Of a stretch of 38,907 nucleotides of DNA, positions 1 to 19,098 are shown piece by piece. Position 1 is the first letter of the stretch. Each line of letters begins with the position of its first letter. The notes under the pieces were generated by a model that saw only the letters and a program-made list of their open reading frames with translations, made no database searches and was not told where the DNA came from. Origin of the DNA: Clostridia bacterium (GTDB lineage Bacteria > CBDUZB01 > JAGLHV01); assembly GCA_030595925.1 (NCBI GenBank), contig JAUVLC010000011.1, forward strand, positions 1 to 38,907, in the 5' to 3' direction. Made by a program: the position numbers and the translations under genes.

Positions 1-1255
1 TAGTTTTTCTTAATTTCTCTAAATAAATATCCAGGGAATCTTTGTTACGCTGAAAAACAATATTGTGCTGTTCTTCTATAGCTCTTTTTAACAATTTCCT
101 TGTAGTTTTAACTACACTATGTCCATCAAAACGACTATTCAGTTTATTTCTAACAATTTCATACCCAAATGCATGGAAAGTTTGTACTGAAACTCCTTCA
201 TCTCTTGTAAAATGTTCTGCGACGGGAATTCCTTTGCTCTTTAATCTTTGCTTCATTTCATCTGCTGCTTTTTTATTAAATGCAAGTGCCAATATGGAAT
301 TAGGCTCAATCCCCTTGTTTAGTAATTGTGCAATTCTGTTGATTAACGTTTTAGTTTTTCCAGAACCAGCAGGAGCCAAAACCCTAATTAGTCCTGTAAT
401 AAAATCCAGTGTTCTAAGTTGTGATTCATCTTTTTTTAAGTCTTCATCGATTGGATATTTTTTTGGGGTCGTTCTATAGCTGATACTCTGTATTTTCTCT
501 ATACAAGAATCTATATTAATATAGATTTCCGAACCTGTAAAGTGAATAATTCTATAATCTTCTTTACTCAATTCCTTATCACGTTTCTTGTCTCGATAAG
601 GATTATGATACTCCCTCCCATCACACTCTACGATTATTTTCTGGTTATCGCACTCGATTAAAAAATCTACATAAAATCGACCTAATTTAACTTGTGGAGT
701 AAAGGATATATTTCTCTTTTCTAAAGCTTCTTTCATAATCTGTTCAATCGGTGTATAAATAGTTTTTTCCCATGAAGTTTTTAGAAACCTTGGTGATGAA
801 AATTTGTAATTTACTTGATCTATTAAGTCTATCAATTGCTCGATAAAAAGGAAATTGAAAACTTTTTGTAAATCGGTATGAATCATTCCACTTTTTATCT
901 GTTTTCTACTATAATCATCGGCATCATTTTTGCTAAAGAAGCAAATGGACTTATTTTTATAAAAAGCAGGATATACTAATTTATTTACAAATGGATCGAT
1001 AAATTTTTGGAGGTCTATAATATCAACGTCTTGATAGATTAACACCAAATCAATTGTATTATCAATATTAGGAAGTCTACCATCTTTTAAATAATCAGAA
1101 GATTTAAATACAACTCGTTTACGATTAGTGGCTTCTACTTGAGTCAAGAAACTAAAGAATAAATTATCATCGGCATTGAATATAGAGATTCCTTTTCCAG
1201 ATTGAATATGATATTTAATATTTCCAAAATAATACGCAAACAATTCGTTACTCAT
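1..1255 (-). CDS. UvrD/Rep-type superfamily 1 helicase with N-terminal DUF559/Vsr-like nuclease domain (3' end outside window)
   Basis: Only the first 418 codons are in the window; the frame runs open off the left edge. Residues about 185-255 form a DUF559/Vsr-like PD-(D/E)XK module: VDFLIE (196-201), then IIVECDGREYH (207-217), where the Asp and the E-x-D pair fit metal ligands. A superfamily 1A helicase core follows, with Walker A APAGSGKT (294-301), motif Ia ALAFNKKAADEM (324-335) and VQTFHAFG (357-364), as in UvrD/PcrA. Residues 1-180 match nothing I recognise. The ATG was chosen because no earlier in-frame start fits; AGGAT lies about 7 nt upstream. Helicase-nuclease fusions of this kind usually act in DNA repair or defence. 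A dispersed repeat separates it from the next gene, so it probably forms its own unit. Domain calls are firm; the biological role is inferred. Confidence 0.85.
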   Translation of the reverse strand, partial: MSNELFAYYFGNIKYHIQSGKGISIFNADDNLFFSFLTQVEATNRKRVVFKSSDYLKDGRLPNIDNTIDLVLIYQDVDIIDLQKFIDPFVNKLVYPAFYKNKSICFFSKNDADDYSRKQIKSGMIHTDLQKVFNFLFIEQLIDLIDQVNYKFSSPRFLKTSWEKTIYTPIEQIMKEALEKRNISFTPQVKLGRFYVDFLIECDNQKIIVECDGREYHNPYRDKKRDKELSKEDYRIIHFTGSEIYINIDSCIEKIQSISYRTTPKKYPIDEDLKKDESQLRTLDFITGLIRVLAPAGSGKTKTLINRIAQLLNKGIEPNSILALAFNKKAADEMKQRLKSKGIPVAEHFTRDEGVSVQTFHAFGYEIVRNKLNSRFDGHSVVKTTRKLLKRAIEEQHNIVFQRNKDSLDIYLEKLRKT

Positions 1256-1303
1256 ACTTAATATCCTATAAATCTCTTTTTATTTGTTTGTAGCATAACA
1301 TTT

Positions 1304-1467
1304 GCGGGACGTTGCTTAAAGTTTTAATTTATTGGAGTATCTATTCTTTAATCCCTAATAATTTTCCCATCTTCACACCTGGTTTCTTCAGATGTCTACT
1401 CGCCTAATATACTACTACACTTTTCGTTTTTTCCATTTATACTTTAAAGCTTTAAGCAACGTCCCGC
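1304..1467 (-). repeat. Dispersed repeat copy R1, intact terminal inverted repeats
   Basis: The ends are a perfect 18-bp inverted repeat: GCGGGACGTTGCTTAAAG at 1304-1321 and its complement at 1450-1467. The interior matches copies R2, R3, R5 and R6 but lacks roughly 55 bp of the central part. It lies 41 bp after the stop of the 602-residue gene and upstream of the helicase gene. No target duplication is obvious. Confidence 0.85.
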
Positions 1468-1508
1468 ATCTTTCCCCGTATTATTTCCCGTATTGTCTTA
1501 TTCACTAA

Positions 1509-3317
1509 TCATAATGACATCTTTACGTATGCGTGCTTCGCTGTTAAAGCATTAATATTTCCTTCAACACCAAGCACTTTTAGCTTTTTTTCTAAACATT
1601 TTTTTGGGTTTGCGTTCTTATTTTTAGATTCTAAACCGTACCATGTGAGATAACCATTTTTAGGGGAAATCTTCAGCAAACCTCCATCATATTCAATTAA
1701 ATCTCTTTTTTTATTAGAGAACGTAACTGAACCAGCAACAACCAAATATTTATTTCTATTGTTGTTTCTCTGCTGTTCTTTTATTAATTGCTTTCGTAAT
1801 TCACGCAAACCCAAGACTTCTTGATATTCATCTTGAGATTCAATCTTACTGTCATCACGCTTTCTTATTAAATGTTTTGTGAAGGGATCACTTAAATTCG
1901 GATTACTCGCCCAAATATTTATCTGACTATAGGTATTAACCTCATTAAACAACCCCATTCTTTTAAAATTCCATGGTATAATTTTTACAATCACATTATC
2001 AAATTTTAGTTCCACCGCTCTTGACAATAAAATTTTATAAGAATTTAATAGCGACTTTTTTTTAAAAACATCCATGGTATCTTCTAATTTCGCGTTAATA
2101 TTGTCAATCCTCTTGATCAACCATGCAATAAGACGACCTACTTCTTGGGTGTTTGGATTTTTGCTAATAACATCTATTATCATCTCATTAGGCTCAAACA
2201 TGACACTCGAATTCCATGCCTTATATTCGAAGACAGCAGGATATTTAAATTTCTTTTTCCGTAAACTATTTTCTAATTTCAAATAAGACTCAGGTAAATG
2301 TATAAAATGGCTCCTCAATCTGATGGTGGCAGAAATCGTAAACTTATCTTTTTCCTTAATTCTACCCAATTCTAACTCGTGCCTAAGTCCAGATTTTAGC
2401 CATTTATCAATTACTTTCAGGCTATTTCTTTCTTCCACTAGTTTGATATAAACGCTTTCCGATAATAGTGCTGTTTCTTTTCTTGTATCCACTCGATGAT
2501 AAATCTCATCATATACAGCCTTTTCAATGGGCGACAATATTTCACTGATTCGGTTTTCAAATTCTTCAATGCTTATAGAATCGCAATCAATAAGCGATTC
2601 TGCAAGTGAGGGTATGTTGGGCGCCCATCGCATTCCGCTCATAGGCACATCAATGGTAAGATATGCTAAATGCCTGACGACCTTAAAACATGATCGCAAC
2701 TTATACCATTGTGCTGAAATTGGCTCATCGTACCCAAGCAAAAAAGGTGCTGCAAAATTTAAGGTAAACTGTAACAAATCATCATTTTTATCGGTAACAT
2801 AGCAAAGAAGTTTATAAATACATAGTATTCTAGAAAGTGCTAAATAATCATCTTTTAGAAACAATGCATTGGCTTTTTTAATTATTCTTTTGACCTCAGC
2901 CATCTCGCTAAAGCGCCAGTTTAATTGTTTAACAGGCGACTTACTACTTTTATGTGAAAGATATCGACACACACCTTTTTCAACCGCAAATGTCCCTGGC
3001 AAATGTCCAATATTCCAAATAAGTGATAATGCCTGCAACGCAGAAATGCCTGATGTGAAATCTATTTCTCCTATTTTAAAATTACCTTGCATTCTGGAAA
3101 TTTTAAAGTTTGTAGAATAATAAAGCATGGCAACAGAGTAATCCCAGCGGGCCAAACGGGCACCTTGCAAAACATATGCATATGCACCAAGATGTCGTAA
3201 TTTATTAAGCCGATTTAACTCTTTTTTTTGCTTTAATCTTTGATATATCGACACCGCGGGATCATATAAAGTTAATTCTTGATAACCGACTTGAGGGATA
3301 ACATGTATGATATTCAT
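1509..3317 (-). CDS. Unrecognised 602-residue protein, possibly a degenerate HD-like plus C-terminal nuclease-like protein
   Basis: I do not recognise this family. The sequence is soluble, helix-rich in the middle and has no signal peptide or membrane segment. Around residues 97-113, LSLIWNIGHLPGTFAVE resembles the H-D-I-G-H-x-P core of HD/dGTPase-type phosphohydrolases, but the HD pair reads WN, so the site would be degenerate. Near the C terminus, Asp544 in EYDGG and Glu563-Ser-Lys565 in GLESKN have a D...ExK arrangement, as in some PD-(D/E)XK nucleases; this is suggestive only. It is a single-gene unit with dispersed repeats on both sides, between an OLD-type nuclease and a nuclease-helicase. 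That context argues for a defence role. ATG start; no strong ribosome site is visible. Confidence 0.75.
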   Translation of the reverse strand: MNIIHVIPQVGYQELTLYDPAVSIYQRLKQKKELNRLNKLRHLGAYAYVLQGARLARWDYSVAMLYYSTNFKISRMQGNFKIGEIDFTSGISALQALSLIWNIGHLPGTFAVEKGVCRYLSHKSSKSPVKQLNWRFSEMAEVKRIIKKANALFLKDDYLALSRILCIYKLLCYVTDKNDDLLQFTLNFAAPFLLGYDEPISAQWYKLRSCFKVVRHLAYLTIDVPMSGMRWAPNIPSLAESLIDCDSISIEEFENRISEILSPIEKAVYDEIYHRVDTRKETALLSESVYIKLVEERNSLKVIDKWLKSGLRHELELGRIKEKDKFTISATIRLRSHFIHLPESYLKLENSLRKKKFKYPAVFEYKAWNSSVMFEPNEMIIDVISKNPNTQEVGRLIAWLIKRIDNINAKLEDTMDVFKKKSLLNSYKILLSRAVELKFDNVIVKIIPWNFKRMGLFNEVNTYSQINIWASNPNLSDPFTKHLIRKRDDSKIESQDEYQEVLGLRELRKQLIKEQQRNNNRNKYLVVAGSVTFSNKKRDLIEYDGGLLKISPKNGYLTWYGLESKNKNANPKKCLEKKLKVLGVEGNINALTAKHAYVKMSL

Positions 3318-3414
3318 TATTTACTTTTTCTCCTTGACTTGTTGGTAGCATTGAAACACAATATTAGAATGCTAGACAATATACGGAAAGTTGTTTAAAA
3401 TTTTAGGAACATAT

Positions 3415-3633
3415 ACGGGACGTCGCTTAAAGTTTTAATTTATCGAAATATCCTTTCTTCAATCCCTTTCTTTTTACAAAAATTTCTGCCTCTTTCTTTT
3501 GTTATCCTTATTGCACCTGATTCAATCTCTAATCTTCCCCAACCTCACACCTGATTCCTTCAAATATTTACTCGCCTAATACACTCTTCGTTTCTTCTGT
3601 TCATACTTTAAACCTTTAAACTACGTTGACCCC
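3415..3633 (-). repeat. Dispersed repeat copy R2
   Basis: About 219 bp, aligned over its whole length with R3. The left end ACGGGACGTCGCTTAAAG matches the family terminal repeat with two changes; the right end has diverged (TTTAAACTACGTTGACCCC). A second, weaker terminal-repeat-like stretch (ACGGAAAGTTGTTTAAAA, 3383-3400) lies just outside the left end. It begins 47 bp after the OLD gene's stop and fills most of the 363-bp gap before the 602-residue gene. Confidence 0.8.
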
Positions 3634-3680
3634 TTTTCTCTTTACAGTTTTCCTTATAACACTTTCAGAAAGAATATTTG

Positions 3681-5234
3681 TTATTTATTCCACTCTTTTA
3701 TTTTATTATAAATTGTTTTAATCTTTTCATTAAGGTCAGATATATTAAGCTTTAATTTGTCTATATTGTCATACGCGAACTCTATTTTATCTCGATTTTT
3801 AAATTTCTTTTTAATGCTCTCGGGGAGATATCCTTCAATTGTGGATATAGGTATTTTTCTGTTGTAGCCCTTGTATTTAACGTTGACCTTTGCAGTTTCA
3901 CTTGTTAACCATACATTACTTTTCTTAACTTCATTAATAAAATCTATTTTACTTTTCCATTTTCCTTTATCTTTCTTACCCCTATCCCTGTCTATTACCA
4001 CAAAGTAATTATGATTTAGGTTAATTACTTTAACGCGATTTTTATGGTTATTATTGTCATTGAAGAATTCATAATTTTTTAAACTTCCATTATAGGGTAA
4101 TATTATGTATTCAGTACCTTCTTCATACTTTTTTTTTCTGTATTTTTTCGTCCATAATTTAAGCCATTGATTAATATATATTCTATCAGATGGGCCCTCA
4201 ACCCAAATAATACCGTTGGGCTGCAACAAATCACTTGCTTTTACTCCTATACGCTCCAGCATTTCTATTTGCTTACTGTTATTACAAGAAATATCTTCAT
4301 AAGTAGTGTAATACTTTCCATCTCCTTTCGAGTACTCTTTCTTAAAGTTTAATATACCAATATCTTTTTTGTATCTGGAGCTTGATGCAAAATTAATAAT
4401 AAAGGGAGAATGTGTCGTTATGAAAAATTGCTTTCCTGTTTTTGACAATTTAATCAGATAGCTAAGAAACATTTTTTGAAGACTAGGATGCATATGATTT
4501 TCTGGCTCTTCAATTAGGAATATATATGTACCACTAATCTCTATACCATTCTCATCTTTTTCTCTTGTATTTGCAATTGTATTTTCTATTTCAGCAATAA
4601 AATATAAAAACATTCCAATTCCTGAGCCTATTTCAGATGTTGGAATGCCATCTTTATCCTTACCTTTAAGATAATCTGCAAGTGATTTATCTATTAGGTC
4701 ACTTGTTTTTGAAGGGAGCTCAATTTTTGCTTGACCTGTTAATTTAAGTATATTATTCATTTTGTTTTGCACTTTTTTTCTTAAATCATCATCGAATTCC
4801 AATATATAAAGGTATTTAGAATTATTTGCCCATTTGTGCCAAGACCTGTCTGGGCCTATCGGAAAAAAGCGTTTTCTACATTTTGTAAGCTTTGTTACTT
4901 TAATAAGTTTGACTGTTTCGTTATCATATTGACATTGTTTTACAACTGGTAATTCATTTTTACCAGCGAATTCACATTGTAATGTTATTATTTTATTTTC
5001 ATTATAAAAATCATTCTTTGTTTTAATATCGCTTCTTCCATGTCCGCCTCCGTGATCTGTACCTGTGTCAGGTTTTAATAATAATCTCAATGCATTAGCA
5101 AAATTACTCTTACCTGAAGAATTTGGGCCAATTAAAATATTAATTGGTTTTAACCCCGTAAACCTTTTTGAGTCACTGAATGACCTATAATTATTAATTG
5201 TAATACTTTTTATTATATATGGATTTTGTGTCAT
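3681..5234 (-). CDS. OLD-family ATPase with C-terminal TOPRIM nuclease domain
   Basis: The N-terminal half is an ABC/SMC-like ATPase split by an insertion. It has Walker A GPNSSGKS (36-43), a signature-like IGSGIGMFLY (202-211), Walker B YIFLIEEPENHMHP (237-250) and a switch histidine in FITTHSP (271-277). The C-terminal half carries a TOPRIM fold: Glu346 in WVEGPSD, the acidic pair in FVVIDRDRGK (411-420), and TIEGYLP (465-471), the metal-site pattern of OLD nucleases. OLD proteins are ATP-regulated DNA nucleases, many with anti-phage roles, including Gabija GajA and retron partners. The start codon abuts the stop of the upstream TerB_N gene with no gap, so the two are almost certainly translated together. 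Family assignment is strong. Which OLD class it belongs to cannot be settled by reading; the partner here is not UvrD-like. Confidence 0.9.
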   Translation of the reverse strand: MTQNPYIIKSITINNYRSFSDSKRFTGLKPINILIGPNSSGKSNFANALRLLLKPDTGTDHGGGHGRSDIKTKNDFYNENKIITLQCEFAGKNELPVVKQCQYDNETVKLIKVTKLTKCRKRFFPIGPDRSWHKWANNSKYLYILEFDDDLRKKVQNKMNNILKLTGQAKIELPSKTSDLIDKSLADYLKGKDKDGIPTSEIGSGIGMFLYFIAEIENTIANTREKDENGIEISGTYIFLIEEPENHMHPSLQKMFLSYLIKLSKTGKQFFITTHSPFIINFASSSRYKKDIGILNFKKEYSKGDGKYYTTYEDISCNNSKQIEMLERIGVKASDLLQPNGIIWVEGPSDRIYINQWLKLWTKKYRKKKYEEGTEYIILPYNGSLKNYEFFNDNNNHKNRVKVINLNHNYFVVIDRDRGKKDKGKWKSKIDFINEVKKSNVWLTSETAKVNVKYKGYNRKIPISTIEGYLPESIKKKFKNRDKIEFAYDNIDKLKLNISDLNEKIKTIYNKIKEWNK

Positions 5235-6170
5235 TTATTCCTTCTTTTTCAAACTTTTCAAGATATTTTTTACTTCTTCGTGAGTTATATTGTGAATATT
5301 TATTATCTCCTTTTTAAATGGCCCGTGATTAAACAATTCCGGCACATGTGGCAACCTGATATGTGACGGAAATGATATATTTGCAAATGATATAGTTTGC
5401 CGCTGCTTAAGTTCAGCTATATTGTATCTTCCGTAGAACGGAAATCGTTTTGTACCGTAATGGTTTTTTATCTGGTTTTTAAGTGCAGATAAATATAAAT
5501 CAGGATTATTTTTTATATATCGTTTGTTCAAATCCGGCATTCTTTTGAATATTCTTACCAAATCCTGTGCTTCCAAATCATGATTCATTAAGTTTAACAT
5601 TAAAAGCTCTATGTTATTATCTGTATCATCTGCAATTTTAATTTCTTTCACCCTGTCCATTCTTTTACGCAAAATGCAAGCATATATAAGTGCATGGTTA
5701 CTGTAACTAATAAAAGAACTATTTTTATGATATTCTCTAAGTAACATTATTTTGTCAAAAGCAAGATCAAATTTTTCGAGCACCAAATGTCTTTCAAGCC
5801 CATAGTAGTAAATGAACACATATCCTATGTTTATCTCACCGGTTATATCTTTCAACCAATTAAGATATATCCATTTTTGTTCTGGCGATAAACCAGCATA
5901 TGTAGGATAATAACTTGGCCGTGGAATATCAAACCCATTTGGATTTCTGATTGGCATCTTGATATAAATTGTGCTTGGCTCTAAAGAAAACTCTTTTAGT
6001 TTTACTTCTCCGGTTAAAATATCAAAGGTTATATTGATTGGCATACCACAGCGAAAAGATTCTGTGGGGGGTTCATAAAAGGAAATATACAGCAATTCCT
6101 TTGTTCTCGCAGGAATTTTAAATACCGTTTCTTTCAGTTTTATTTCTTCATATTTGACAAGATTGTTCAT
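5235..6170 (-). CDS. TerB_N-domain protein, partner of OLD nuclease
   Basis: Residues about 60-250 match the TerB N-terminal domain (TerB_N). The diagnostic blocks are RPSYYPTYAGLSPEQKWIYL (84-103) followed by IGYVFIYYYGLERHL (115-129). Family members usually continue into TerB and TerB_C domains. This 311-residue protein ends soon after TerB_N with a Lys-rich tail, so it looks like a stand-alone or shortened form. No membrane segment or signal peptide is visible. Its TAA is followed immediately by the ATG of the OLD-type gene, making a tight two-gene operon. TerB-type domains occur in tellurite/stress and phage-defence contexts. I infer that this one senses or scaffolds for the nuclease. An alternative is a generic stress protein co-inherited with OLD. 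Confidence 0.85.
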   Translation of the reverse strand: MNNLVKYEEIKLKETVFKIPARTKELLYISFYEPPTESFRCGMPINITFDILTGEVKLKEFSLEPSTIYIKMPIRNPNGFDIPRPSYYPTYAGLSPEQKWIYLNWLKDITGEINIGYVFIYYYGLERHLVLEKFDLAFDKIMLLREYHKNSSFISYSNHALIYACILRKRMDRVKEIKIADDTDNNIELLMLNLMNHDLEAQDLVRIFKRMPDLNKRYIKNNPDLYLSALKNQIKNHYGTKRFPFYGRYNIAELKQRQTISFANISFPSHIRLPHVPELFNHGPFKKEIINIHNITHEEVKNILKSLKKKE

Positions 6171-6228
6171 TTTTTATGCCCTAAAATCTTATGGGATTTG
6201 AGGAACAGTCTTAAGATAAGGCGAATAT

Positions 6229-6449
6229 GCGGGACGTTGCTTAAAGTTTTAATTTATTGAAATATCTCTTTTTTCAATCCCTTTTTTCTTAAACAAAAAA
6301 CTGCCTTTTTCTTTTGTTATACTTATTATATCTAATCCAATCTTCAATAATTTCCCCAACTTCATACCTGATTCCCTCGGTTATTTACTCGCCAAGTACA
6401 CTTTTCGTTTTTTCTATTCATACTTTAAAACTTTAACCTACGTCTCCCC
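6229..6449 (-). repeat. Dispersed repeat copy R3, best-preserved interior
   Basis: 221 bp with an exact left terminal repeat (GCGGGACGTTGCTTAAAG, 6229-6246) and a diverged right end. Read on the minus strand, the interior contains two short overlapping open frames. One starts ATGAATAGAAAAAACG and ends in an ATGA overlap; the second begins MKLGKLLKIGLDIISITKEK and runs to a TAA just before the terminal repeat. The other copies carry frameshifts in this region. Apart from R3, the 344-bp gap between the TerB_N and membrane-protein genes shows nothing recognisable. Confidence 0.85.
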
Positions 6450-6514
6450 AAACTCACCTTGTCCCTTATGTATCCCCAACTTAATGTAGTATATTCCTCA
6501 TTCCTTCTTTAAAA

Positions 6515-7897
6515 CTATTTCTTTCCTTTATTAAAATCAGGGATTACTCCTTGTTTGACCATAGTTGTCCAATCATTCAAATGATTCCGTCCCATTTCCC
6601 AGAATTTGGCACAAAGCTGAAAAAATTCAATAACGACTTCTCTTTCCCCTTTCTTCAACAATTCTTTCGCAAGCCCCATGCTCGGACCAAAAGAATTGAG
6701 TTGAGGAGAACCGGGTGTCTTACCAGCTTCAAGGAGATAATGCTTAGCTTCCTGGATATTATTTTCTTTTAAGGCGACACGCCCGAGAATAATATTCGCA
6801 TCGTAGATAACATTTCCATAATTCCAATTCCCTTCTTGTCCTTGTACAGATTCCAAAAGGGCATTTGCATATTTAACTTCAAAATATCTTGAAATCGGGC
6901 TAACAAAAACAAGTAAAGAAAACATCGTAATAATTAATCCTATAATCACACCACCTAAAGCCCAAGATATTCCGAACAATTTCCCCTGGCTCTTTTTAAT
7001 TCTCACCAAGGCCACTGCTCCAACAACTAATGGAGGTAATCCAACTAACAAAAGGAACACAGCGGCTTGCTTAATAACTTCTGAAACGCCAAGTAGTTCA
7101 ATGGTAGTCATAAACACAAAGTCTTGTGGAAGTCTAAAGCGAAATGGAAAGATTGCGGCAAAGATTATACCAAAAATTCCAATGATAGTTGCAAAAACAG
7201 CGAGACCACTTCTCTCAACGGAAGGAGATTCTTTAATTTGATACTGATTCCTACTATCAATTATTATCTTTTTCGTGGAATCTATTCCCATTCCAAACAA
7301 TGCCCCTCCAGCAACATGGGCAATCAACAATCCGATGAAAAATGCTAATCCAAAAGCAATCTCCATCCTCAATTCTATAAACGTGTTCATAATATCAAAT
7401 AAAACAAAGGCAATAGCACCGCCAATGGTCCCACTGATACAAAACCCAATAGCACCAGTTATCACTATATATACAACCGAATAAAAATCAGTAATTTCTT
7501 TTACCCCTAAGCATAAAAATATCGCGCCAATCGCTCCTGCAACACCAAAAGCGATACCCCAACTACCTGCATTCCACACTACTGAAGTTACAGAAACAGC
7601 AGTATTAAGACTTAATATTGAAAAGGGGATAATTACACTCACAATTATAAAACCAAGCCCAAAACCAAAAGCAACAATCAGCGAGGACTTAATGTCCATT
7701 CTTCCCCAACATAAAAATCCCCCACCAATAGCTCCACCAATAACAAAGCCAAGAAACAAAACAGCCTCTAAAGATAATACCACAGCTAAAATTATTACGA
7801 GATATGCAATGAGATTACCCGATCCAAATCCAACAGCTCCTCGAAGAGCAAAACCATTGATTACTCCTGTTTTTTTCATAGTTTTCTTGTCCAACAT
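6515..7897 (-). CDS. Polytopic membrane protein with DUF4190-like segment and C-terminal helical-repeat tail
   Basis: About 460 residues. The first 330 or so hold eight to ten Gly/Ala/Ile-rich hydrophobic segments with small-residue packing patterns such as GGAIGGG. The stretch ALVRIKKSQGKLFGISWALG before the last membrane segments resembles DUF4190. The final 120 residues are soluble and look TPR-like (ILGRVALKENNIQEAKHYLL, then AGKTPGSPQL). The ATG at 7897 was chosen over a possible earlier start at 7939 because GAGG lies about 6 nt before it and the earlier start has no ribosome site. Repeats R3 and R4 flank it as a single-gene unit within the defence-like region. It could be a membrane effector or just a passenger; no function can be assigned. 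Confidence 0.8.
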   Translation of the reverse strand: MLDKKTMKKTGVINGFALRGAVGFGSGNLIAYLVIILAVVLSLEAVLFLGFVIGGAIGGGFLCWGRMDIKSSLIVAFGFGLGFIIVSVIIPFSILSLNTAVSVTSVVWNAGSWGIAFGVAGAIGAIFLCLGVKEITDFYSVVYIVITGAIGFCISGTIGGAIAFVLFDIMNTFIELRMEIAFGLAFFIGLLIAHVAGGALFGMGIDSTKKIIIDSRNQYQIKESPSVERSGLAVFATIIGIFGIIFAAIFPFRFRLPQDFVFMTTIELLGVSEVIKQAAVFLLLVGLPPLVVGAVALVRIKKSQGKLFGISWALGGVIIGLIITMFSLLVFVSPISRYFEVKYANALLESVQGQEGNWNYGNVIYDANIILGRVALKENNIQEAKHYLLEAGKTPGSPQLNSFGPSMGLAKELLKKGEREVVIEFFQLCAKFWEMGRNHLNDWTTMVKQGVIPDFNKGKK

Positions 7898-7958
7898 ATT
7901 ATCCTCGCTTTTCCTACTTAGTGGAAAAAAGGGGAACAAAGTTGACTTAGGGACTTCT

Positions 7959-8000
7959 ACGGGACGTTGCTTAAAGTTTTAAAGTTGTTGAAGTATATAC
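7959..8000 (-). repeat. Dispersed repeat copy R4, truncated to one end
   Basis: Only the left terminal repeat and a few following bases remain: ACGGGACGTTGCTTAAAG then TTTTAAAG and TTGTTGAAGTAT. The interior and the other end are missing. It lies downstream of the endonuclease gene, next to the attC-like palindrome. Confidence 0.7.
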
Positions 8001-8036
8001 CTTTATTTCCCAAATATTACATTTTTTTTCTCATAC

Positions 8037-8068
8037 ACATAACGCTTGAGCTCAGCGATTTGTTAGAA
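8037..8068 (-). other. Short attC-like palindrome directly after the endonuclease stop codon
   Basis: On the minus strand, TTCTAACAAATCGCTG is followed by AGCTCAAGCGTTATGT. TAAC pairs with GTTA and GCT with AGC. These are close to the outer arms of integron attC (59-base element) sites, which typically read TAACAA-TCGCT ... AGCTCAAGCGTTA. They begin one base after the gene's TGA, where attC sites normally sit. The central variable stem is missing: about 32 bp against a usual minimum near 57. No integrase is in view. Treat it as a possible remnant. Confidence 0.35.
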
Positions 8069-8677
8069 TCATATCTTTATAAATTCTTTCAAAAATCTTG
8101 GTCTTGCATAGAAGGCTCTCGTAGTAGAACCATGACCAGAACCTTTAGTTCGTGGTTGAATATAGTATCCCATTTTTCCAGTTAAGGCATCAAATCCCTT
8201 TTGTGGATCAAGAAGTGTTTGCCTGACAAGATCGTAATCATCCTTTACGGCATTATATAACTTTCCGTGCAAATCGAATTCAACAACAGAATGAATCTTG
8301 GTGGGTTCATCTACAGAGTCTCCAACAATCCGTGTAATCACTACTGCCTTTCTAAGTTTAGCCAATAAATGACTTTCTTCAAATTCTTTCTGACAGACAT
8401 TAATCGGATCGATCATAGTAACCGCCATAGTTTCCTTGAATGTGAGTTCCCCATTCTTTTTATATCTCAATGGAATTGACTTTAATTCCCATGAACCAAA
8501 ATTTGGAGACTGTGCTGAGTTTATAGGAATCTCTAAATATCTCTCAAATATATGACCGGCCCAGCCTTTATTTACCTTCCCGTTGCGATAAATGGTAACA
8601 TTATATTTACCTGCCAAGGCATGTAGTTCTTTTCCAACAAGTTTTTTCAGTTTTTCAATCGCTTCTTTTCTTTCCAT
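8069..8677 (-). CDS. Type II restriction endonuclease, MutH/Sau3AI-like fold
   Basis: A 202-residue protein with the MutH/Sau3AI core: KGWAGHIFERYL (37-48), SPNFGSWELKSIPL (57-70) and TMAVTMI (83-89). The C terminus has TTRAFYARPRFL (185-196), which matches the MutH-family Arg-Ala-Phe-Tyr-x-Arg-Pro block. Expected metal ligands are Glu45, an acidic residue at 59, Glu64 and Lys66. Position 59 is Asn instead of the usual Asp, so activity may be reduced or the site may be a subfamily variant. It follows the methyltransferase gene by 18 bp in the same direction, the usual R-M layout. MutH relatives and the DpnA-like partner both suggest GATC-type recognition, which is inference. Confidence 0.8.
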   Translation of the reverse strand: MERKEAIEKLKKLVGKELHALAGKYNVTIYRNGKVNKGWAGHIFERYLEIPINSAQSPNFGSWELKSIPLRYKKNGELTFKETMAVTMIDPINVCQKEFEESHLLAKLRKAVVITRIVGDSVDEPTKIHSVVEFDLHGKLYNAVKDDYDLVRQTLLDPQKGFDALTGKMGYYIQPRTKGSGHGSTTRAFYARPRFLKEFIKI

Positions 8678-8695
8678 CTTAAAATTCCTTATAAA

Positions 8696-9556
8696 TTATG
8701 GCAGCAACCCGTATTCAAGTTGTTTTTCTTTAACGCGAAGTTGCTTAGCATTAAACAAAGGTGATTTTTTTCGCAAAAGTTCATCCTTGATTCTTGGAAT
8801 TGCAAAATTGTCTAAATATTCTTTTTCTGAATCTATCCCTACAAATCGACGATTGAGCCTAATAGCCGCAACTCCGGTAGTCGCGCTACCGCAAAACGGA
8901 TCAAGCACAATGTCTCCTTTATTACTACTGGCTAAGATAATACGTTCCAGTAATGTTTCGGGTTTCTGTGTGGGATGTTTCCCGTATTTTTTTTCACCGT
9001 TTTTAGGTGTTCCAATAGCCCAAATACTTCTCATTTGTTTATTAGGTTTCTTAATAAAATCATCTGGGAAAGAGCCATTTCTCATTTTATTATAATTAAA
9101 GGTATGCTTTGCCTTTTTATCTTTTCTAACCCATAATAAGGTTTCATGACTTGCTGTAAACATTCTGCACGAAAGATTAGGTGACGCATTTGGCTTATAC
9201 CAGCAAATATCATTTATAATATGCCAACCTTGTTTTTGAAGGGCGTAACCACACACATATATTGAATGATAAGTTCCCGAAATCCATAAAGATCCTTTCG
9301 GCTTCAAAACACGCTTGCATGCCTCAATCCAACTGTAATGAAAATTAAAATCTTCCTCTATTCCTTTGCTTTTGTCCCATTTGCCCTTATTGACACTGAC
9401 TCGCTTTCCTGCATGGCATGTAAATCCACCATTCGAAAGATTGTAAGGCGGATCAGCAAAAATCAAATCGACACTTTTTTCCGGTAAAGAGTTTAAAACA
9501 TCTATTACATCACCTCGAAAAAGTCTTATTCCAATTTCTTTGAAATATGCTTCCAT
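8696..9556 (-). CDS. Adenine-specific DNA methyltransferase, beta class, DpnA-like
   Basis: The 286-residue protein has catalytic motif IV FADPPYNLSNGG (33-44) first and the SAM-binding motif LDPFCGSATTG (218-228) near the end, the beta-class order. KHPTQKP (193-199) precedes motif I as in N6-adenine methylases. WISGTYHSIY (91-100) and ASPNLSCRMFTASHETLLW (124-142) closely resemble DpnA (M2.DpnII), a GATC methylase able to use single-stranded DNA. It protects host DNA from the endonuclease encoded 18 bp downstream. The ATG is 3 bp after the stop of a broken upstream ORF, which suggests a once longer operon. I saw no degenerate motif; function is firm, specificity inferred. Confidence 0.92.
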   Translation of the reverse strand: MEAYFKEIGIRLFRGDVIDVLNSLPEKSVDLIFADPPYNLSNGGFTCHAGKRVSVNKGKWDKSKGIEEDFNFHYSWIEACKRVLKPKGSLWISGTYHSIYVCGYALQKQGWHIINDICWYKPNASPNLSCRMFTASHETLLWVRKDKKAKHTFNYNKMRNGSFPDDFIKKPNKQMRSIWAIGTPKNGEKKYGKHPTQKPETLLERIILASSNKGDIVLDPFCGSATTGVAAIRLNRRFVGIDSEKEYLDNFAIPRIKDELLRKKSPLFNAKQLRVKEKQLEYGLLP

Positions 9557-10065: not shown

Positions 10066-10203
10066 TCCGCCAATCCTTAAGGAGGATTATATCTAATCCA
10101 ATCCCCAATAACTTCCCCAAATTCACAGTTGGTTCCTTCAGATATTTACTTGCCTAATACACTTCTCGTTTCTTCTATCCATACTTTAAATATTTAAGAC
10201 ATT
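10066..10203 (-). repeat. Dispersed repeat copy R5, carrying one nested 21-bp palindromic unit
   Basis: The block from TTATATCTAATCC to ATACTTTAAATATTTAAG matches the right half of R2, R3 and R6. Neither terminal 18-bp repeat is intact. At 10066-10086 a 21-bp palindromic unit (TCCGCC...TTAAGGAGGA) interrupts the family sequence at the position where R6 carries two such units and R3 none. It ends 17 bp after the stop of the GH20-like gene. Confidence 0.75.
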
Positions 10204-14312: not shown

Positions 14313-14900
14313 TTATCCGGAATAATATTCGTCTTTCTCCCAATTAGCGGGGTTGTTTATTATATATTCGCGGATTCGGGCAAGATCGGATTCATAGCGA
14401 ATGACGTGTTCGTAAAAATTGCGTTGCCAGAAGCGGATATCAAATTTCGGCCAATTATTATTTTTGACATTTCGAATATATTCGTTCAATGACATTGTTT
14501 TAAACCATTGAATAATTGTCCCAACCATCGGCGTAGGGGCAGACCTGCATGTCTGCCTTTTAATATTGATATTATCAATGTCGTAATTATTAATGCGATT
14601 GTTATTAACATTATCCCCATTATCAGGGCGGACACATAGGTCCGCCCCTACAATCACGATTATTCCGTGTAAATGATTCGGCATTATTTTGTATTCGTCA
14701 ATTTCAATCATATTGTATTTTCGTTTCAATTCTTGCCACCATTTATCAACCATTTTCCCGCATTCATTCAACACCATTTCACAATTACGCACATCACCGA
14801 ATACGCATTTCCGGTCATTAACACACACCGTCACATAATACACGCCTTGTTGCGTATAATCGTAATCTTTTAACCTGATTGATTTGCGGTTTCCGGGCAT
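14313..14900 (-). CDS. REP-associated tyrosine transposase (RAYT, IS200-like Y1 family) with in-frame REPIN insertion
   Basis: Single-strand DNA transposase of the HUH/Y1 superfamily. The metal-binding HUH pair is His76-Leu-His78 in MPNHLHGIIV, and the nucleophile is probably Tyr179 in REYIINNP. The start MPGNRKSIRLKDYDYTQQGV and the block RFWQRNFYEHVIR (156-168) are typical of RAYTs, which are thought to mobilise REP/REPIN palindromes. Residues 84-123 (GADLCVRP ... TCRSAPT) are not protein-family sequence. They are the translation of a complete 119-bp REPIN inside the gene that keeps the frame. The insert falls in the variable loop after the HUH motif, so activity may survive. No strong ribosome site is visible. 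Two more REPIN copies lie just upstream. Confidence 0.92.
   Translation of the reverse strand: MPGNRKSIRLKDYDYTQQGVYYVTVCVNDRKCVFGDVRNCEMVLNECGKMVDKWWQELKRKYNMIEIDEYKIMPNHLHGIIVIVGADLCVRPDNGDNVNNNRINNYDIDNINIKRQTCRSAPTPMVGTIIQWFKTMSLNEYIRNVKNNNWPKFDIRFWQRNFYEHVIRYESDLARIREYIINNPANWEKDEYYSG
14533..14651. repeat. REPIN copy A, inside the RAYT gene
   Basis: 119 bp starting GTAGGGGCAGACC and ending GGTCCGCCCCTAC. The two outer arms are inverted repeats, and each arm is itself a hairpin (GGGGCAGAC/GTCTGCC and GGGCGGAC/GTCCGCCC). The centre is AT-rich. It adds about 40 codons to the transposase without a stop. Confidence 0.9.
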
Positions 14901-18871: not shown

Positions 18872-19098
18872 CTTTTTGAAATCCCTTTTTTTACACAAAA
18901 ATTGCCTTTTTCTTCTCTTATGCTTACCTGCCTGTCCGCCAATCTTTAAGGCGGGTCCGCCAATCCTTAAGGTGGATTATATCTAATCCAATCTTCAATA
19001 ACTTCCCCCACTTCACACCTGGTTTATTCAGATATTTACTTGTTTAATATATTTTTCCTTTCTTCCATTCATACTTTAAAGCTTTAAGCATTTTTCCG
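18872..19098 (-). repeat. Dispersed repeat copy R6, with two nested 21-bp palindromic units
   Basis: The interior aligns with R2/R3 over about 180 bp. The left terminal repeat is missing, and the right end keeps CTTTAAAGCTTTAAGCA before diverging. Two tandem 21-bp units (TCCGCCAATCTTTAAGGCGG at 18935, and a second at 18956) interrupt it at the site where R5 has one unit. It ends 21 bp after the stop of the 40-residue ORF. Otherwise the 315-bp gap holds only the helicase leader. Confidence 0.75.
18935..18976. repeat. Two tandem 21-bp palindromic REP-like units
   Basis: Each unit pairs TCCGCC with GGCGG(G) or GGTGGA around AATCTTTAA. Related units occur at 10066-10086 (one copy, also inside a dispersed repeat) and at 35497-35517 (16 of 21 identical). 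Copy number therefore differs between otherwise matching sites. Confidence 0.75.

Follow-up and report, generated by a model that had tools for sequence, protein, structure and literature searches.

In the genome of a Clostridia bacterium, a gene for a protein with a TerB_N domain ends exactly where a gene for an OLD-type ATPase/TOPRIM nuclease begins. The question is whether these two genes form a defence system of their own, as an earlier note made from the sequence alone had proposed, or are two mobile genes that have come to lie side by side. The window that we analysed is a whole contig of 38,907 nucleotides from a 2.6-Mb genome, whose phylum is represented by three genomes in our collection.

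Organization of the gene pair

Both genes are located on the minus strand, which carries nearly all of the genes in the window, and TerB_N is the upstream gene. The features of the locus are as follows:

5235-6170, minus strand: stand-alone TerB_N protein of 311 aa, recognized by Pfam TerB_N, with a mostly helical core
3681-5234, minus strand: OLD-type ATPase-TOPRIM nuclease of 517 aa, Class 1-like, recognized by AAA_15 and by profile and Foldseek matches
5232-5237, minus strand: junction of the TerB_N stop and the OLD start, gap of 0 nt, from the sequence and the ORF list
4185-4199, minus strand: OLD TOPRIM motif 1, EGPSD, E346 to D350 (motif position 344-350), invariant in 24 sequences
3984-3992, minus strand: OLD TOPRIM DxD motif, D415 to D417, invariant in 15 and 24 sequences
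6215-6455, plus strand: dispersed repeat copy upstream of the pair, with 46 matches in the genome
3411-3626, plus strand: dispersed repeat copy downstream of the pair, 83% identical to 6215-6455
1300-1463, 7960-8007, 10086-10197 and 18872-19087: further repeat copies in the window

The contact between the two genes that the earlier note had described was confirmed in the sequence: the ATG start codon of OLD abuts the stop codon of TerB_N, and an AGAAGGA-like ribosome site lies ahead of OLD within the 3' tail of the TerB_N gene. Gaps of 0-2 nt were also found at 3 of the 30 other gene junctions in the window; the spacing of the pair therefore points to a common transcript and is not unusual.

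The nuclease is a Class 1-like protein of the OLD family

The OLD protein matched Pfam AAA_15 (E=1.8e-31) and showed many PADLOC matches to the GajA, Old, AriA and NsnB models, and the separate OLD TOPRIM model of Pfam gave no score on the 517-aa protein. A profile built from the protein and 14 homologues matched the Thermus scotoductus OLD structure (TsOLD, 6p74) at 1.6e-23 and GajA structures at 3e-21. The AlphaFold2 model was weak (pLDDT 61), and a Foldseek search with this weak model returned GajA, the Retron-Eco8 OLD and TsOLD as the first PDB matches (E 4e-13 to 3e-11). The Walker A motif (GPNSSGKS, residues 36-43) and the Walker B region (LIEEPENHMHP, residues 240-250) are conserved in the alignments of 15 and 24 sequences. 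The protein thus combines what defines the OLD family, an N-terminal ABC-type ATPase with Walker A and B motifs and, in the C-terminal part, the TOPRIM acidic residues E346, D350, D415 and D417. The latter correspond to E377, D381, D431 and D433 of TsOLD, metal-binding residues whose mutation lowers cleavage (PMC7049728).

The last acidic TOPRIM residue is probably E467 in STIEGYLP, a candidate assigned by pattern only from its likeness to S478-x-E480 of TsOLD. A lineage-specific insertion of ~20 residues precedes E467, MAFFT aligned this region differently, and the model has a pLDDT of 33-46 there. Because E467 lies behind the insertion and the alignments disagree, the claim that the nuclease keeps all of its catalytic residues holds for the Walker motifs and the four conserved acidic residues, while for the complete set it is likely rather than shown. 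The divergent insertion, together with decayed repeat copies with stops nearby, would fit a scenario in which both genes are decaying relics without function. However, both reading frames (311 and 517 codons) are intact and the main catalytic and core residues have been kept, and we therefore consider such decay improbable.

By its sequence and length, the protein is best placed with the Class 1 OLD proteins, which include P2 Old, TsOLD and E. coli YbjD. As in these proteins, an ABC ATPase and a TOPRIM domain are joined in one chain of 500-600 aa, the metal-binding residues match, and neither a UvrD helicase nor a reverse transcriptase is immediately adjacent. However, Class 1 genes are described as isolated, whereas the OLD gene in the window is abutted upstream by TerB_N, so that in the strict sense it falls outside the isolated-gene definition of this class. 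Two other systems with related proteins were rejected. A retron with an OLD effector (Class 3) does not fit, as no reverse transcriptase was present among the profiled neighbours on either side and there was no Rfam match in 1200-8100; in PARIS (AriA/AriB), the ATPase and TOPRIM parts are encoded by separate genes, whereas here one ORF encodes both.

Gabija (GajA/GajB), a Class 2 OLD system, likewise contains an OLD-type protein, and the profile and fold matches to GajA were described above. If the locus were an expanded or broken Gabija-like locus, OLD would be GajA and its helicase would be the UvrD-type ORF at 1-1255, which lies on the same strand two genes downstream (Pfam 1.1e-23) and matched GajB profiles. 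However, a repeat, an unrelated 602-aa gene (1509-3317, no family match) and a second repeat intervene between OLD and the helicase, so that no GajB-like helicase adjoins OLD. The architecture of the UvrD-type protein also differs, as its helicase domain begins only at residue 277 and is preceded by a nuclease-like domain (DUF559/MTES_1575) at the N-terminus, whereas that of GajB starts from the N-terminus. In addition, an OLD protein of 517 aa is short and falls on the Class 1 side, and the helicase gene is interrupted by the contig end. We therefore rejected Gabija membership and regard a Gabija-like origin of the locus as very unlikely. The UvrD-type helicase and the 602-aa protein possibly represent another system.

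The TerB_N protein belongs to a stand-alone clade

The upstream protein matched Pfam TerB_N (PF13208) with an E-value of 6.7e-14 and 52.6 bits against a curated cut-off of 25, and this was its sole Pfam match at E<=0.1. At this threshold, no hidden TerB or TerB_C domain was found, and the earlier note was thus correct in describing a TerB_N gene that lacks both domains and shares a compact operon with an OLD-type nuclease gene; the hidden domain that it had named as a refutation is absent. An AlphaFold2 model based on an alignment with 37 relatives was confident and mostly helical (pLDDT 88.1, pTM 0.84), and a match to this fold was found neither in the PDB nor in predicted viral structures. 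The literature examined gave no mechanism for TerB_N and contained no relevant paper under TerB_N or TerB-N.

Used alone as a query against the genome and viral contigs, the TerB_N protein returned no match, and finding homologues needed an alignment that included phage and Cetobacterium homologues. Relatives were then found at 53 genome loci, a few of the weakest being Shango-type, and on 22 viral contigs, on plasmids and in one phage record; all 41 aligned relatives match TerB_N. In the phylogenetic tree, the stand-alone TerB_N proteins formed a single clade, separated from four Shango-type proteins (100/100), and the window protein grouped with the Bacteroidota prophage proteins L026, L028 and L076 (100/98), on long branches and at an identity of ~30-35%. 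Some relatives are similar in length to the window protein (285-360 aa) and others carry extra N- or C-terminal parts. The window gene is therefore no shortened Shango protein, and the term "shortened" used in the earlier note was misleading: a length of 311 aa is that of the core shared by a large stand-alone clade and not that of a truncated SngA.

TerB_N is part of Shango (SngABC), an experimentally tested system (PMC10250203). A reduced Shango, in which TerB_N would be SngA and the ATPase would be SngB, is suggested by a PADLOC SngA match (E=1.6e-12) and by the composition of Shango, in which TerB_N likewise occurs together with an ATPase, besides a DEAD helicase. However, only the TerB_N part was matched, with 45.9 bits vs. 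350 bits for a real SngA. SngA extends beyond TerB_N to a total of about 700-780 aa, and its partners are another ATPase and a DEAD helicase. None of these additional parts and partners is present here: the window protein is without TerB_C, and no DEAD helicase is adjacent. Moreover, the tree places it within the stand-alone clade, apart from the four Shango-type proteins. Because these domains and genes are missing, Shango membership is refuted, and the probability that we assign to a reduced Shango is close to negligible.

TerB_N genes in prophages and integrative elements

Of the 57 non-redundant loci of the TerB_N clade, 25 contain a tyrosine or serine integrase within 4 kb of TerB_N, 25 contain an ImmA peptidase or a repressor of phage type within this distance, and in three a large terminase gene adjoins TerB_N; the integrase, repressor, ImmA and resolvase families were confirmed by Pfam. 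The stand-alone TerB_N clade is thus a gene family of prophages and integrative elements, often situated in the lysogeny module. Lysogeny modules are known to carry anti-phage genes, of which P2 old is an example (PMC10568477). From this position, we infer a role of TerB_N in conflicts between mobile elements, which the genomic context supports.

The clade is also modular. In one Lachnospiraceae branch (L045, L046, L048 and L051), an Mrr-type nuclease domain is fused to TerB_N; Mrr_cat was matched at a Pfam E-value of about 1e-27 in the three fusions scanned, and the E..D..QxK motif is intact in all four loci. As the fusion is confined to a single lineage, it probably arose in one event. Phage repressor and integrase genes flank three of these four loci, and the fusion gene is a candidate single-gene prophage defence. 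Other TerB_N relatives possess C-terminal TPR repeats, a zinc ribbon or a Phage_Mu_F-like part, the latter at the C-terminus in L029, L037 and L063. In a gut phage (L013, 9767-11293) and related viral contigs (L018, 7791-9308), a TerB_N-TPR gene is flanked by those for the large terminase and the portal protein, which is an unusual position for a defence-type gene. In comparison with members such as those of Cetobacterium (L002), phage PV036459 (L013), Bacteroides (L026) and the Lachnospiraceae fusion L046, the window protein shares the nearly full-length TerB_N core at an identity of about 23-36%, and like them it stands apart from the Shango-type proteins in the tree. In contrast, these members lie beside repressor/integrase or terminase/portal genes or are fused to Mrr, TPR or zinc-ribbon parts, and none of them is accompanied by OLD.

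Repeats and the accessory region

The earlier note had also pointed to repeats flanking the pair. These repeats are real, and a copy lies on each side; they do not define the pair, because the dispersed element has 46 matches on more than 20 contigs of the genome. In eight sampled contigs, the copies occupied intergenic positions, with an orientation that was almost always constant with respect to the genes, and many of the genes that they separate are of accessory types. This placement indicates that the repeats mark intergenic gaps in general. The element is ~200-240 bp long, and copies read in the gene sense encode a decayed tail, for example EQKKREVYLASKYLKESGEKLGKLLGIGLG...QILQ-stop. A short decayed ORF end of this kind was found in repeat copies at 29 places, none of them within a long ORF; by eye the tail resembles a transposase C-terminus, and it had no Pfam match. 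Rfam families were likewise absent from the repeats within 1200-8100. Integron attC sites were considered and rejected: the core-site motifs misfit by eye, and matches to integron integrases were below the cut-off, such weaker matches occurring in every control genome too. In the same genome, repeat-separated genes that by eye are defence-like, of RloB/RloA-type and OLD/AAA-type, were seen at L209 (7344-9115) and L210 (4621-6486).

The TerB_N protein, the 602-aa protein and a 474-aa protein had no match in two congeneric genomes, whereas an aminotransferase gene on the same contig (16373-17470) is conserved at 93-95% in both. The pair therefore sits in an accessory region. Neighbouring genes encode a Sau3AI/MutH-like nuclease and a methyltransferase (8069-9556, minus strand); the endonuclease is compact (202 aa), and the adjoining adenine methyltransferase is of CcrM type. 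An IS200-type transposase gene (14313-14900, minus strand) has a copy with 98% identity at a different place in a congener (L206, 8092-8507), indicating that it was recently mobile.

The pairing is not found elsewhere

The adjacency of TerB_N and OLD was examined from both sides. First, apart from the window, an iterated OLD profile and a signature scan found an OLD gene near none of the TerB_N relatives, including the 57 non-redundant loci of the clade; the iterated profile finds all 15 independent OLD homologues. At least 1 kb on both sides was present in 57 of 68 TerB_N loci. The result was the same in two other phyla: TerB_N genes from 22 of 399 genomes in one and from 14 of 28 in the other had no OLD neighbour. 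Second, no TerB_N gene was found at 46 OLD loci, of which 8 were from 7 other genomes, 7 from plasmids and 31 viral, and the OLD relatives are mostly single genes. The OLD search with all 15 homologues had too few conserved stretches, and six were used. The searches of the contig collections used peptide patterns and were not exhaustive, and relatives of both proteins are distant (<=~40% identity); a small clade that has the pair may therefore have escaped them. Within this reach, there was no recurrent adjacency in unrelated genomes, which is the outcome that the earlier note had named as refuting its proposal, and a conserved two-gene system was not supported. The pairing is best read as specific to this lineage: as it was seen nowhere else, it resembles two mobile parts brought together locally more than a widespread defence system not described before. 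The suggestion that the pair matches no described defence type has stood up, as no system with a TerB_N and OLD gene pair was found in the profile libraries and literature examined.

How should the two genes in the window then be explained? The explanation that we favour, at slightly less than an even chance, is that they form an accessory, likely anti-phage two-gene unit, which arose in this lineage when an OLD effector gained TerB_N as its partner. Several observations are consistent with this scenario: the exact junction with its ribosome site; the repeats, which set the pair apart from other genes; the accessory region and the neighbouring Sau3AI/MutH-like nuclease and methyltransferase; the OLD motifs and the profile and fold matches to TsOLD, GajA and the Retron-Eco8 OLD; and the occurrence of the TerB_N clade in prophage lysogeny modules, in Mrr_cat fusions and of TerB_N in Shango. 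However, conserved two-gene systems normally recur, and this pair was present in no other genome, plasmid or viral contig found. In addition, the OLD relatives are mostly single genes, the Mrr fusion is restricted to one lineage, and the OLD model is weak. The phenotype of E. coli YbjD needs no partner (PMC13261556), which also counts against a paired unit.

The lack of recurrence on either side fits a scenario that we consider almost as probable, in which two independent mobile genes, a stand-alone Class 1 OLD and a stand-alone prophage-type TerB_N, lie on a common transcript by chance and each function separately. Both families occur mostly alone, Class 1 OLDs are described as single genes, and close junctions on one predominant strand are found elsewhere in the window. 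Two observations speak against it: the junction of exactly 0 nt with the ribosome site within the first gene, and the position of the pair as a two-gene unit between repeats where most neighbours are single genes or clear functional pairs (restriction-modification). The exact junction and the TerB_N-nuclease fusions thus favour an effector/sensor unit, while the absence of any recurrence, and the fact that both families usually occur as single genes, favour independent genes, and the two explanations are nearly level.

For the favoured two-gene unit, we infer a joint function, an antiviral role and a division into sensor and effector. TerB_N and OLD would be transcribed as a single accessory unit, which most likely acts against phages (mobile elements). 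OLD would be a Class 1-like effector whose ABC-type ATPase gates the TOPRIM nuclease, which may cut DNA or RNA once infection perturbs the cell. TerB_N, a small helical protein whose family is carried by prophages and elsewhere occurs fused to Mrr or alone, would serve as an adaptor or sensor. It would have been put in front of OLD here, to be translated together with it, and would probably hold OLD inactive, or recruit it on sensing a phage product.

Implications for the TerB_N and OLD families

Whether Class 1 OLD nucleases need a partner has been named as an open question (PMC10568477). A broader and rather doubtful idea is that prophages and integrative elements use stand-alone TerB_N as an interchangeable sensor or regulator that is combined with different nucleases, by fusion with Mrr in Lachnospiraceae or in an operon with OLD here, so that the pair would be one member of a group of undescribed TerB_N-gated nuclease defences. 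The natural TerB_N-OLD operon and the TerB_N-Mrr fusions are simple objects for testing whether a nuclease is switched on or off by TerB_N. Even if the pair is accidental, it would be useful to recognize TerB_N without TerB/TerB_C as a gene of prophage lysogeny modules across several phyla, with a fold that matches no solved structure.
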